A stretch of DNA of 39,476 bases from Acidobacteriaceae bacterium (GTDB lineage Bacteria > Acidobacteriota > Terriglobia > Terriglobales > Acidobacteriaceae): the NCBI GenBank assembly GCA_030041515.1, contig JASHNS010000074.1:1-39476 (forward strand), written 5' to 3'. The position numbers were made by a program, and so were the translations under genes. Below, piece after piece: positions 29,743-33,334 of this stretch. The notes below the pieces were generated by a model, which did not search any database, was not told the origin of the DNA, and saw only the letters and a list, made by a program, of their open reading frames with translations. Positions within the stretch are counted from its first letter, which is position 1; each line of letters starts with the position of its first letter.

Positions 29743-30519
29743 ATGCAATGCACCGGCAACACCATTCTCATCACCGGAGGCACTTCCGGCATCGGACGCG
29801 CCCTCGCCGAAGCCTTCCACCAACTCGGAAACGAGGTCATCGTGGCCGGGCGGCGCCGCGAGCTTCTCGACAGGGTGACTACCGAGAACCCTGGCATGCG
29901 TTCCGCCGTTCTCGATGTGCAGGACCTCGGGGGTCTCGAAGCCTTCACGGACCGTATCGTCCGCAACCATCCCTCCCTCAACGTCCTGATCAACAACGCC
30001 GGGATCATGAAGCCCGAAAACCTCCGCAAGGGCGACGACTTTTCCACCGTCGAAGCGACGATCACGACGAATCTGATCGCCCCGCTGCGGCTCACGGCCG
30101 CGTTACTGCCGCACCTGCAACAGCAACCCCGTGCTGCCGTCATGAATGTCTCCTCGGGGCTCGCCTTCGTCCCGATGGCGCTGACGCCAACCTACTGCGC
30201 CACCAAGGCAGCGATGCATTCCTGGACGCAATCCCTGCGCTGGCAACTGCGCAGCTCCTCCGTAGAGGTGCTGGAACTGATTCCGCCCTACGTGCAGACA
30301 GAACTGATGGGGCCTCGCCAAACGCAGGACCCACGCGCCATGCCCCTCGCCGAGTTCATCAGGGAAGCGATGCAGATCCTCCGCACCCAGCCCGCGGTTC
30401 AGGAGATTTGCGTCCAGCGCGTCTATCCTCTGCGTTACGCCGGCAGCCTGGATCTGGTGAAGTACACCGAGATGTTTCAGGGGCTGAACAGCGGTTTCGG
30501 CGGGGATCACCAGGAGTAA
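29743..30519 (+). CDS. short-chain dehydrogenase/reductase, DltE-like
   Basis: 258-aa NAD(P)-dependent oxidoreductase of the classical SDR family. The Rossmann motif TGGTSGIG is at 11-18, NNAGIM at about 85-90, the catalytic Ser is in NVSSGLAFVP, and the Tyr-Lys pair is in YCATKAAMHSW (Y-x3-K). The sequence is closest in style to DltE-type SDRs (QCTGNTILITGGTSGIGRALAEAF), often labelled 'involved in D-alanine esterification', although their real substrate is unknown and no dlt genes occur here. The start is ATG 29743 with AGGAG 7 nt upstream; the very long frame to 28696 is spurious. Confidence 0.93.
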   Translation: MQCTGNTILITGGTSGIGRALAEAFHQLGNEVIVAGRRRELLDRVTTENPGMRSAVLDVQDLGGLEAFTDRIVRNHPSLNVLINNAGIMKPENLRKGDDFSTVEATITTNLIAPLRLTAALLPHLQQQPRAAVMNVSSGLAFVPMALTPTYCATKAAMHSWTQSLRWQLRSSSVEVLELIPPYVQTELMGPRQTQDPRAMPLAEFIREAMQILRTQPAVQEICVQRVYPLRYAGSLDLVKYTEMFQGLNSGFGGDHQE

Positions 30520-30571
30520 GCCTGGCACTCCGCTGGAGGCGGATGTCGACCTGCCGCCATGACCATGTCCT

Positions 30572-30587
30572 TGTGATGGCAGTCACA
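30572..30587. promoter_or_regulatory. perfect CRP-type binding site
   Basis: TGTGA-TGGCAG-TCACA matches the TGTGA-N6-TCACA consensus of CRP-type regulators exactly. Its centre (30579.5) is 41.5 bp upstream of 30621, the start predicted from the -10-like GACAAT at 30609-30614. That is the classic class II activator position. The downstream gene encodes a cyclic-nucleotide-binding-fold protein without a DNA-binding domain. Confidence 0.55.
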
Positions 30588-30623
30588 TCCCGACGGAGGC
30601 AGACGTCGGACAATCTTTCCTGT

Positions 30624-30649
30624 GGCGGGCTGCTGCGCCCGCCTTTTCT
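30624..30649 (+). terminator. terminator-like hairpin ending 2 nt before a start codon
   Basis: GGCGGGC (30624-30630), loop TGCTGC, GCCCGCC (30637-30643), then TTTTCT. This is a textbook intrinsic terminator on the plus strand. It may end SDR transcripts, or act as an attenuator or 5' stem-loop for the next gene, whose ATG is at 30652. A smaller stem, CCGACG/CGTCGG (30590-30609), precedes it. Confidence 0.6.
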
Positions 30650-30651
30650 CG

Positions 30652-31062
30652 ATGACGACTGACCTGGCTGAACTGAAAACCGAGCTTGAGCGTCTCGCTT
30701 CGAATATCTCTGTGTCTGCCGGTTCCGCTCTCTTCCGTTGTGGTGACCCGGCCTCCGGGGTTTTCCTCATCCGCAGGGGCTCCGTGCGCATGGCTCTCGA
30801 CGATGCCGGTGAGGTTTTCGAGGAGCGCCTCCTCGGCCCTGGAGAAATCATCGGTTTGCCCGCTGCTCTGACCGGAAATTACAGCCTTTCCGCCCAGGCC
30901 GCTGAGGATTCCGAGCTGGGCTACATTCCCGCTCCCCTTGTCACATCCCTGCTGGAGTGCTCGCCGCGCCTCTGTTTGCTGGCCACCCGCGTCATGAGCG
31001 CAGAGATCGCCCGCATGCGGTCGGCTCTCCGCGACGGCATCCACGTCGCTGTGCACGAATAG
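30652..31062 (+). CDS. stand-alone cyclic nucleotide-binding-fold protein (no HTH)
   Basis: 136-aa protein with a single cNMP-binding beta-roll: LERLASNISVSAGSALFRCGDPASGVFLIRRGSVRMALDDAGEVFEERLLGPGEIIGLPAALTGNYSLSAQAAEDSELGYI, followed by a C helix (LLECSPRLCLLATRVMSAEIARMRSALRD). The helix-turn-helix of Crp/Fnr proteins is missing. The phosphate-binding cassette has GE (in GPGEIIGLP) but lacks the Arg of the 'RSA' element (SLSAQA instead), so cAMP binding is doubtful. Four Cys could allow redox sensing. The start is ATG 30652; GTG 30622 is an alternative. There is no Shine-Dalgarno. It converges with cobB with 9 bp between stops. It may be a soluble sensor or partner protein. Confidence 0.82.
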   Translation: MTTDLAELKTELERLASNISVSAGSALFRCGDPASGVFLIRRGSVRMALDDAGEVFEERLLGPGEIIGLPAALTGNYSLSAQAAEDSELGYIPAPLVTSLLECSPRLCLLATRVMSAEIARMRSALRDGIHVAVHE

Positions 31063-31071
31063 GCCTTCGGA

Positions 31072-31809
31072 TCAGCCCACTTCGAAGAGCTCAGGCAGCA
31101 CTTCGCCGGCTTTCCCCAGCACGATCTGCGTAAAGGAACCAGCATTCGCCGGCTCCTCCGGCCCGATGTAGATTCTGCGCGCCTGAGGTTCGGCCCAGTT
31201 CACAAAGCTCGCCGCTGGATAAACCGCGCCCGACGTACCCGCCACCAGCATCGTCGTCGCCTGGGCGATCTCCCGCTCGATGCGATTCATCTTCAGCGGA
31301 GTCTCGCCGAACCAGACAATGTGGGGACGGATCCTGCCGCCGCACGCGCAGCGAGCGATCGCGGCGTCGCTTTCATACAGCGCCTCGTCATGGAACGGCT
31401 TCGCCGCGCACGCAAAGGCCCCCATTCCCGCGCCGGAAAACTCGCATCGCGAGGCGAACAGCTCGCCATGCATGTGCACGAGCCTGCGTGACCCGGCGCG
31501 CTCATGCAGGTCATCCACATTTTGCGTGCACAGAAAGAACCGCTCGCCCAGCGCCCGTTCCATCGCGGCCAGGGACCGATGCGCGACATTCGGCTCGGCC
31601 TTCAGCGCGTCTCGACGACGCTGGCTGTAAAAGCGCCATACGCGTGCCGCATTCTCGGCCCAGGCCTCCGGCGTAGCCACATCCTCCACGCGATGGCCCT
31701 CCCATAGTCCGCCCTGATCTCGAAAGGTCTTCAGCCCGCTCTCCGCGCTCACTCCGGCGCCGGTCAGCACAAAGACTCGCTCTTCCGGGCCAATGCGAAT
31801 TCGCTTCAT
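31072..31809 (-). CDS. cobB: SIR2-family NAD-dependent protein deacylase, CobB-like
   Basis: 245-aa sirtuin. The NAD-binding GAGVSAESGLKTFRDQGGLW is at 17-36, TQNVDDLHERAG at 95-106, the catalytic His is in HMHGE (H114), and HIVWFGE plus AGTSGAVYPAASF follow. Y61-x2-R64 in WRFYSQRRRDAL is the class III signature that allows succinyl- and malonyl-lysine as substrates. The zinc module has CEFSG (122-126), where the second Cys of a normal CxxC is Ser, and CACGG (154-158). From memory, E. coli CobB has a similar CSQSG arrangement. The product removes acyl groups from lysine. The start is ATG 31809, one base after the pepA stop, so the gene is coupled to pepA. Confidence 0.92.
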   Translation of the reverse strand: MKRIRIGPEERVFVLTGAGVSAESGLKTFRDQGGLWEGHRVEDVATPEAWAENAARVWRFYSQRRRDALKAEPNVAHRSLAAMERALGERFFLCTQNVDDLHERAGSRRLVHMHGELFASRCEFSGAGMGAFACAAKPFHDEALYESDAAIARCACGGRIRPHIVWFGETPLKMNRIEREIAQATTMLVAGTSGAVYPAASFVNWAEPQARRIYIGPEEPANAGSFTQIVLGKAGEVLPELFEVG

Positions 31810-31810
31810 C

Positions 31811-33334
31811 TCAGCCCTCGTAGCGCCGCACCCATTCAAGGATGCTGCGCATCGCCACGCCACTGGGCCCGGCGGCCACCCACGGCTTCGCCTCATCCTG
31901 CCAGGCCATGCCCGCTATATCCAGATGCACCCACGGCGTATCCTCTGCGAACTCTTTCAGAAACATCGCCGCGGTGATCGCGCCGCCGTACCGCCCGCCC
32001 GTGTTTTTGATGTCCGCAATCTGCGACCGGATCAGCTCCCGATAATCGTCCTCCACCGGCAGACGCCAGAAGCGCTCCCCGGAAATCTTCAGCGCCTCGG
32101 CGAATTCCGCGTACGTCGCATCGTCGTTCGAGAAGACGCCTGCATTGATCGTGCCCAATGCCACCGAGACCGCTCCGGTTAATGTCGCTGCATCGATGAG
32201 ATGCGTCGCGCCCAGTTGTTTCGCATAGGTCAGCCCATCGGCCAGAACCAGGCGGCCCTCCGCGTCAGTGTTGATGATCTCGATCGACTTGCCTGCCCGA
32301 TCCGGCCCCGCGGCCATGGCGATCTGCACGTCGCCGGGCTTCTGCGCCTTGCCCGAGGGCATATTCTCGGCGGCGCAGACAATGCCGATCACCCGCACCT
32401 TCGGCTGCAGCTGGGCAATCGCCCGCATCGTTCCGATCATGGCCGCACCTCCGGCCATGTCGTACTTCATCTTCTCCATGTTGTCGGCAGGCTTAATGGA
32501 GATTCCGCCGGTGTCAAAGGTGATGCCTTTGCCCACTAAACCCAATACCGGCCCATCGGTCACGCCCTTTGGTTCGTATCGCATCACGATCAGTGCCGGC
32601 GGCTCGTCGGATCCCTGCGCTACGCTCCAGAAGGCGCCCATCTGCAGTTCGTGCAGCTTCCCGGTGCTGTGCACCTCGCAGGTCAGCCCATACTCGCGGC
32701 ACATCTCCGCGGCTCTTTGCCCCAGAATCGTCGGGGTCAGCCGATTCCCCGGCTCGTTCACCAGTGAGCGCGCAAAGTTCTGCGCCTCGCCAACGATCAC
32801 CCCTTCGCGCAGCCCGATTTCCACCGCGGCGCGGTCGACTGCGGCGCCGGTCACGACCTGCAGAGCCTGCACACTGCGGTCTTTCCGGTCGCTGCGATAG
32901 GTGTCCGGGTCGAAATCCGCCACCAGCGCCCCCTCGACCAGCGCGCGCACTGCCAGCTTTGGTTCCATCGACTCGGCCGCCGGGGCCGCGACGGCGATCT
33001 CGCGGATCCCACGAGGCTTCGCGAAACGCACCGCCGTTCCGGATGCTTTGCGCACGTCATGAATCGTCGCTTTCGCCGCCTTGCCCAGCCCCACCAGCAG
33101 CAGCCGTTTCGCCTTCAGGCCGGCGGGAGCGTGGAGCAGGAGCGTTTCGTTCGCCTCCGCCCTGAACTCGCCGCCGTCCAGCACCGCCTGCGCGGCCTTC
33201 AGCGGCGCATCGTCCGGGGTCAGCAATCGAAGCTCCGGCTTCGCATCTTTGCCAGTCGCCCCATCGGACGCGAAGACGGCCAGCAGTTCGGTTTCCACGT
33301 CACTCAGAGCGGAATTCAGCAGTTTGGTATTCAT
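31811..33334 (-). CDS. pepA: leucyl aminopeptidase (M17)
   Basis: 507-aa cytosolic di-metal aminopeptidase that removes N-terminal residues from peptides. The catalytic domain shows GLVGKGITFDTGGISIKPADNMEKMKYDMAGGAAM (Lys and Asp ligands) and the family signature NTDAEGRLVLADGL (metal Asp/Glu and catalytic Arg), then DAATLTGA. The N-terminal macro-like domain spans about residues 1-160. The length is normal. The start is ATG 33334 with AGGAG 5 nt upstream; the frame to 33601 overlaps the divergent secreted-protein gene and is not used. A 9-bp hairpin lies in the leader at 33350-33375. In some bacteria PepA is also a DNA-binding protein; nothing here tests that. It is followed by cobB after one base. 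Confidence 0.96.
   Translation of the reverse strand: MNTKLLNSALSDVETELLAVFASDGATGKDAKPELRLLTPDDAPLKAAQAVLDGGEFRAEANETLLLHAPAGLKAKRLLLVGLGKAAKATIHDVRKASGTAVRFAKPRGIREIAVAAPAAESMEPKLAVRALVEGALVADFDPDTYRSDRKDRSVQALQVVTGAAVDRAAVEIGLREGVIVGEAQNFARSLVNEPGNRLTPTILGQRAAEMCREYGLTCEVHSTGKLHELQMGAFWSVAQGSDEPPALIVMRYEPKGVTDGPVLGLVGKGITFDTGGISIKPADNMEKMKYDMAGGAAMIGTMRAIAQLQPKVRVIGIVCAAENMPSGKAQKPGDVQIAMAAGPDRAGKSIEIINTDAEGRLVLADGLTYAKQLGATHLIDAATLTGAVSVALGTINAGVFSNDDATYAEFAEALKISGERFWRLPVEDDYRELIRSQIADIKNTGGRYGGAITAAMFLKEFAEDTPWVHLDIAGMAWQDEAKPWVAAGPSGVAMRSILEWVRRYEG

Follow-up and report, generated by a model that had tools for sequence, protein, structure and literature searches.

Which protein reads a perfect CRP-type palindrome that stands before a small gene in a genome of the Acidobacteriaceae, and what does the product of that gene do? 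The palindrome lies in the window analyzed here, a contig of 39,476 nucleotides (JASHNS010000074.1, assembly GCA_030041515.1). In a sequence-only reading of the window it had been taken for a class II CRP site controlling the gene of a cyclic-nucleotide-fold protein, with a feedback or sensor loop inside a cyclic-nucleotide network. Acidobacteriota are an abundant soil group, and to our knowledge little is known about their oxygen control. From the sequence comparisons described below, the site probably serves as a class II operator in an FNR-like regulon for low oxygen which extends across this family of acidobacteria, and two regulators, termed C72 and C110, are its most likely readers. The features of the locus and the putative targets elsewhere in the genome are collected in Table 1.

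Table 1. Features of the locus (positions in the window) and genes assigned to operator sites of the genome.
Feature	Position	Strand	Evidence or remark
Palindromic Crp/Fnr-type operator TGTGATGGCAGTCACA (TGTGA-N6-TCACA)	30572..30587	.	exact match
Probable -10 hexamer GACAAT	30609..30614	+	first base 29.5 bp from palindrome centre
Terminator-like hairpin (7-bp G-C stem, loop 6), then TTTTCTCG, just 5' of ATG 30652	30624..30643	+	fold and terminator scan
Gene for 136-aa sensor-only (cNMP-fold, HTH-less) relative of FNR-like regulators	30652..31062	+	PF00027, homologues, model, tree
Convergent sirtuin (SIR2) gene, conserved neighbour	31072..31896	-	PF02146; putative regulon link only
Target: small gene of the window	30652-31062		
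Target: multihaem cytochrome (QrcA-like)			
Target: NicO nickel transporter			
Target: FeoA			
Target: CysJ-like flavoprotein			
Target: CcsB			
Target: CcmF/NrfE-like haem lyase			
Target: universal stress protein ahead of C72 regulator	L011 468-1409	-	also L065
Target: CydA (cytochrome bd)			
Target: GGDEF protein			
Target: haem-type radical SAM protein			
Target: [NiFe] hydrogenase small subunit and divergent universal stress protein			
Target: three outer-membrane TonB-type proteins			

The window holds a single match to TGTGA-N6-TCACA at up to one mismatch, the exact palindrome first noticed there. On the window alone this is unremarkable, at least one such match being present in 37 of 100 shuffles, and a chance origin would agree with that figure. 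The genome scan that had been proposed as a check gave 18 exact sites, the window site among them, and none for a reversed-pattern control. The expected number was 2.0 by a first-order Markov estimate, based on 185 kb of sequence, in part overlapping, with three foreign loci in it and with loci chosen because they have sites. Summed over the 12 genomes of the genus there are 213 sites and 7 controls. The corresponding counts are 362 and 14 for 25 genomes of the family, and 24 and 7 for 16 more distant genomes; a clear excess is missing in two of the family genomes, G018 (3 sites against 1) and G023 (2 against 2). The excess in the genome, the genus counts and the conservation of the site's position throughout the genus contradict an origin by chance, which was rejected and whose probability we put close to nil. 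Judged by these comparisons, the window site is a real Crp/Fnr-type operator.

A homologue of the small gene is present in all 12 genus genomes. Alignment of the upstream regions, again a check suggested at the outset, shows that the palindrome is retained, exactly in nine and with one mismatch in three (G005, G009 and G003). Its arms are constant across the 12 promoters and its six spacer bases are variable. On an open fork (82/80) the best homologue in G003 (locus L046) is placed with paralogues and not with the orthologues of the window gene, which could bring the strict orthologues that have the site down from 12 to 11. A hexamer of the form.A..[AT]T starts 29.5 or 30.5 bp from the palindrome centre in 12 of the 12 promoters, which, being related, are not 12 independent trials. 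Because the palindrome is conserved and the -10-like hexamer lies at this constant distance, the class II spacing of the earlier proposal is supported. Its transcription start is less secure: we infer a start near 30621, and a strict sigma-70 promoter scan of 30400-31200 found none. At the other genome sites a -10-like hexamer lies 28-31 bp away, in either direction, in only 3 of 17. Genes for CydA and for haem-type radical SAM proteins start 42-46 bp past the palindrome centre (L013 621-674; L122 1493-1531; L125 1480-1530) and, given class II spacing, their transcripts would be almost leaderless.

The hairpin before the start codon had also been singled out. The stem and the T-rich tail are indeed there, with a fold z-score of -2.69 (1 of 200 shuffles was as good). 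A main control element that attenuates or terminates the transcript could be seen in a perfect 7-bp G-C stem with a T-rich tail immediately 5' of the ATG. This explanation is highly unlikely, as a scan of the 110 bases past the palindrome gave no terminator-like hairpin in any of 11 relatives, and terminator-type patterns occurred twice in the 800 bases scanned where 0.9 would be expected by chance. A conserved role of the hairpin is thus not supported, and a conserved riboregulator was rejected (4 of the 11 relatives were folded and all 11 scanned for the pattern). The hairpin could also end transcripts from the upstream SDR gene.

Recognized gene starts (Pfam/NCBIfam) are at or near 15 of the 18 genome sites, the window site included, and no target was recognized among the ORFs scanned at L001, L007 and L012. 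Each start was placed at the earliest start codon that the frame allows, which need not be the true one. The true target is uncertain at some sites because other genes face the opposite way, namely those for a 6PGD-type dehydrogenase (L003), MutS (L009), HSP20 (L014) and an FtsX/MacB-type protein (L015), and farther off GH35 (L005). The TonB-type outer-membrane proteins and the GGDEF protein among the targets are not typical oxygen genes. Two further genomes of the genus were compared. Seven of the 23 sites in G005, all of which were covered, lie by clear homologues of the genome's targets: CydA, HydA with the universal stress protein, the haem-type radical SAM protein, CcsB, the CcmF-like protein, the multihaem cytochrome, and the stress protein that precedes the regulator. 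The 18 of 20 sites covered in G011 include four by clear target homologues, all of types that also recur in G005; the site of the stress protein and regulator is present in G011 too, and the two remaining sites of this genome are in L038 and L071. For both genomes together 11 of 41 sites lie by clear homologues, and the remaining 30 are without annotation. From its gene content, the site set looks like a low-oxygen respiratory programme and not a cyclic-AMP network.

The cyclic-AMP network was weighed as an alternative. A cAMP- or cGMP-bound CRP would activate the small gene, and its product would sense the cyclic nucleotide. The site is the textbook CRP consensus, the candidate regulators have a CRP-like recognition helix, and mycobacterial Crp has the same consensus and induces cydAB, according to PMC7739888. 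The genome also encodes one CYTH protein with weak similarity to cyaB (46.8 bits against a cut-off of 57.95 bits), which may be a class IV cyclase. Neither a class I nor a class III cyclase was found in the window genome. Of 41 genomes in all, 8 gave a class III enzyme. Within the genus it was found in G009 and not in the other 11 of the 12 genomes, several of which are incomplete. The Arg of the cAMP phosphate pocket is R82 of mature CRP; in the alignment this column has Arg in 0 of 45 family rows, and a further regulator of the genome, C62, has no Arg there either. The candidate regulators, finally, carry an FNR-like cysteine motif. A cyclic-AMP network was therefore rejected as the main reading and is very improbable, so that the cyclic-nucleotide part of the original claim does not stand.

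The low-oxygen reading requires a fitting regulator, as did the original proposal, and the genome encodes Crp/Fnr regulators that fit the site, with five matches to HTH_Crp_2 over the cut-off. C72 and C110 share the recognition helix RETVTR, which compares with RETVGR in CRP and VETISR in FNR. This helix is of the CRP type and not of the E. coli FNR type that goes with TTGAT half-sites, and would therefore call for TGTGA half-sites. It is combined with an N-terminal CxxC-x8-C in 16 of 16 regulators (5 of the 10 C72-type, 5 of the 12 C110-type and 6 from other genera), 14 of which also have a later Cys; the C110-type proteins of G001 and G006 were likewise seen by eye to be without it. The spacing of eight residues in both types compares with five in E. 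coli FNR. The best NCBIfam match of C72 and of C110 is CRP, below the cut-off.

The C110 type is present in all 12 genus genomes, once as a partial sequence, and the C72 type in 10, not being found in G001 and G002 (91 and 87% complete). All 25 family genomes encode a protein close to the C72 regulator (E 2.4e-49 or better). Of the 16 others one does, G039 (9.9e-58), seven have weaker matches and eight none at 1e-30. The palindrome also occurs at the regulators' own loci. It precedes the stress-protein gene ahead of C72 in all 10 loci, 9 times exactly and once nearly so, and no such site was found directly upstream of the C72 gene itself in the loci examined. The C72 gene follows about 280 bp behind its stress-protein gene, and a common transcript of the two is at most putative. 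Before the C110-type gene the palindrome is exact in 4 genomes, near in 7 and missing in 1 of the 12, the window genome having one mismatch. With such sites at both regulator loci, upstream of C110 and of the stress-protein gene that comes ahead of C72, a feedback relation is plausible, and to this extent the proposed feedback or sensor loop survives without its cyclic nucleotide.

The regulon could be real and yet be read by another Crp/Fnr protein, one that has no cysteine motif and answers to a different signal. C62 is one candidate, as its helix RELVSR keeps the base-contacting Arg, Glu and Arg (by eye) and no protein of the genome matches PF00027 better. It has no CxxC-x8-C, and no near-palindrome was found in the C62 loci examined, unlike the situation before C110 and ahead of C72; the respiratory targets, moreover, suit an oxygen or redox sensor. 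We regard this reader as unlikely. Apart from the regulators, three proteins of the genome have a cNMP-fold domain at the N-terminus, two of them histidine-kinase-like and one thioredoxin-reductase-like (L019, L021 and L022; named by eye).

In the preferred reading the readers would most likely be the two paralogous FNR-like regulators C72 and C110, whose CRP-type recognition helix is paired with an N-terminal CxxC-x8-C that is probably an iron-sulphur redox or oxygen sensor. The regulator would sense low oxygen or the redox state, bind at about -41.5 and activate, rather than repress, the small gene. The same regulators would switch on cytochrome bd, [NiFe] hydrogenase, cytochromes and their assembly, FeoA, nickel uptake and universal stress proteins.

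A CRP-type box read by FNR is already known. Table 1 of PMC8151001 gives the FNR consensus as TGTGANNNNNNTCACA, citing the Bacillus subtilis Fnr regulon (Reents et al. 2006), and there an FNR-type regulator is joined with a CRP-type site for anaerobic control, as would be the case here. B. subtilis belongs to another phylum. The cluster cysteines of Bacillus Fnr are at the C-terminus, in contrast to the N-terminal CxxC-x8-C of C72 and C110. E. coli FNR has the same fold, and its first two N-terminal cluster cysteines align with those of C72 and C110. It controls cydAB, as PMC7739888 states, which resembles the CydA site here, and uspE is beside fnr, much as a stress-protein gene is ahead of C72. 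It differs in its box, TTGATNNNNATCAA according to PMC4505428, as well as in the helix and cysteine spacing given above. The E. coli and mycobacterial cAMP-CRP have the same operator consensus, and the residues that contact bases in CRP (Arg180, Glu181 and Arg185, per PMC12531629) are all kept in C72 and C110; the absence of an R82 equivalent in the family, the cysteine motif and the failure to find a class I or III cyclase in the genome set the present system apart. TGTGA-N6-TCACA is also given as the motif of an ArcR-type Crp-family activator in PMC5452487. Among the matches listed from the open-access literature, no title concerned an Fnr/Crp regulon in acidobacteria or a Crp/Fnr partner that lacks the HTH.

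The protein encoded by the small gene matches PF00027 (53 bits) and no helix-turn-helix family in the Pfam scan, and no C-terminal HTH was found, which bears out the description of a cNMP-fold product with no DNA-binding domain. GTG 30622 was considered as an alternative start and is not favoured because similarity to the relatives begins at ATG 30652. The best NCBIfam match is FNR, far below the cut-off, and a search of contigs gave three named relatives, of which an Acidobacterium sp. MAG (72% identity) is close and the other two are distant. The predicted structure, of modest confidence and built on a four-row alignment, has an N-terminal helix, a beta-roll and a long C-terminal helix at residues 105-134 (mean pLDDT 71). 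Its best Foldseek matches are CRP-type proteins, with Aliivibrio fischeri FNR at rank 10, and the predicted beta-roll and dimer-type C-terminal helix are those of a Crp/Fnr sensor domain. By sequence kinship the small protein is related to the sensor domain of the C72 and C110 regulators and lacks their HTH. Standalone PF00027-only proteins have the same domain content; the window protein differs from them in that its sensor domain groups with one group of regulators, apart from E. coli FNR, CRP and C62, and in that a matching operator stands before its gene.

Among 48 sensor domains placed in one tree, a single branch (97/91) divides 29 HTH-less rows from 16 regulators, and another (92/94, open) sets the two groups jointly apart from E. 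coli FNR, CRP and C62. The root is unsure and long branches were flagged, so the tree is no proof of a single HTH-less clade. HTH-less here means that no RE[TS]V helix is present in the stop-to-stop frame (29 of 29), the Pfam scan having covered the window protein only. The arrangement recurs in the family in two forms. In the window genus the small gene is unlinked to regulators, and in four sister genera, represented by G014, G015, G021 and G024 (L152, L153, L154 and L109), an HTH-less gene follows a regulator gene within about 140 bp. The tandem HTH-less proteins of two of these genera (G015 and G021) keep the CxxC-x8-C. The regulator copy of G015 (L155 668-1614) seems to be split over two reading frames.

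A palindrome with up to two mismatches is present upstream in all five rows of the tandem group, G022 included although its gene is not itself in tandem, and in 4 of 12 further homologues outside it; the background rate of such palindromes is 0.13 per 240 positions, in site-enriched loci. In G015, G021 and G024 a two-mismatch palindrome is centred 41.5 bp before the first Met of the HTH-less protein, and for G014 and G022 the anchor of this distance lay inside the reading frame.

These features allow two views of what the product does. One is that the protein, which would keep the dimer-type helix without a DNA-binding domain, pairs with the FNR-like regulators through that helix and blocks or retunes their binding to DNA, giving a built-in negative feedback on the low-oxygen programme, which would be a bacterial counterpart of a microprotein. 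The tandems argue for a link of the small protein with a regulator, at least in the sister genera. The proposal is weakened because the small gene is not linked to regulator genes in the window genome, its C-terminal helix is unlike that of the regulators, and 8 of the 12 further homologues outside the tandem group have no site nearby; we put it forward tentatively and think it less likely than not. The other view leaves the regulon as described and lets the small protein keep the fold without acting on the regulator. It would then be an effector or adaptor, for example one that partners the convergent sirtuin or another enzyme. The three points just named speak for it, as does the small protein's want of a cysteine motif, and a sirtuin gene is downstream of the small gene in 10 of 12 genus loci. 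The two loci without one are L040, which is short and lies where its contig ends, and L046, whose G003 homologue was placed among the paralogues. With the regulator tandems of four sister genera standing against it, the effector or adaptor role is a good possibility that falls somewhat short of an even chance.

The window observation is now better founded than the sequence alone could show, and its cyclic-nucleotide meaning fails. A perfect CRP box need not imply cAMP. What emerges is a regulon that is both compact and testable and that has probable regulators. HTH-less relatives, which occur under the same type of operator in the window genus and in tandem with a regulator in sister genera, make feedback by dimer titration directly testable.
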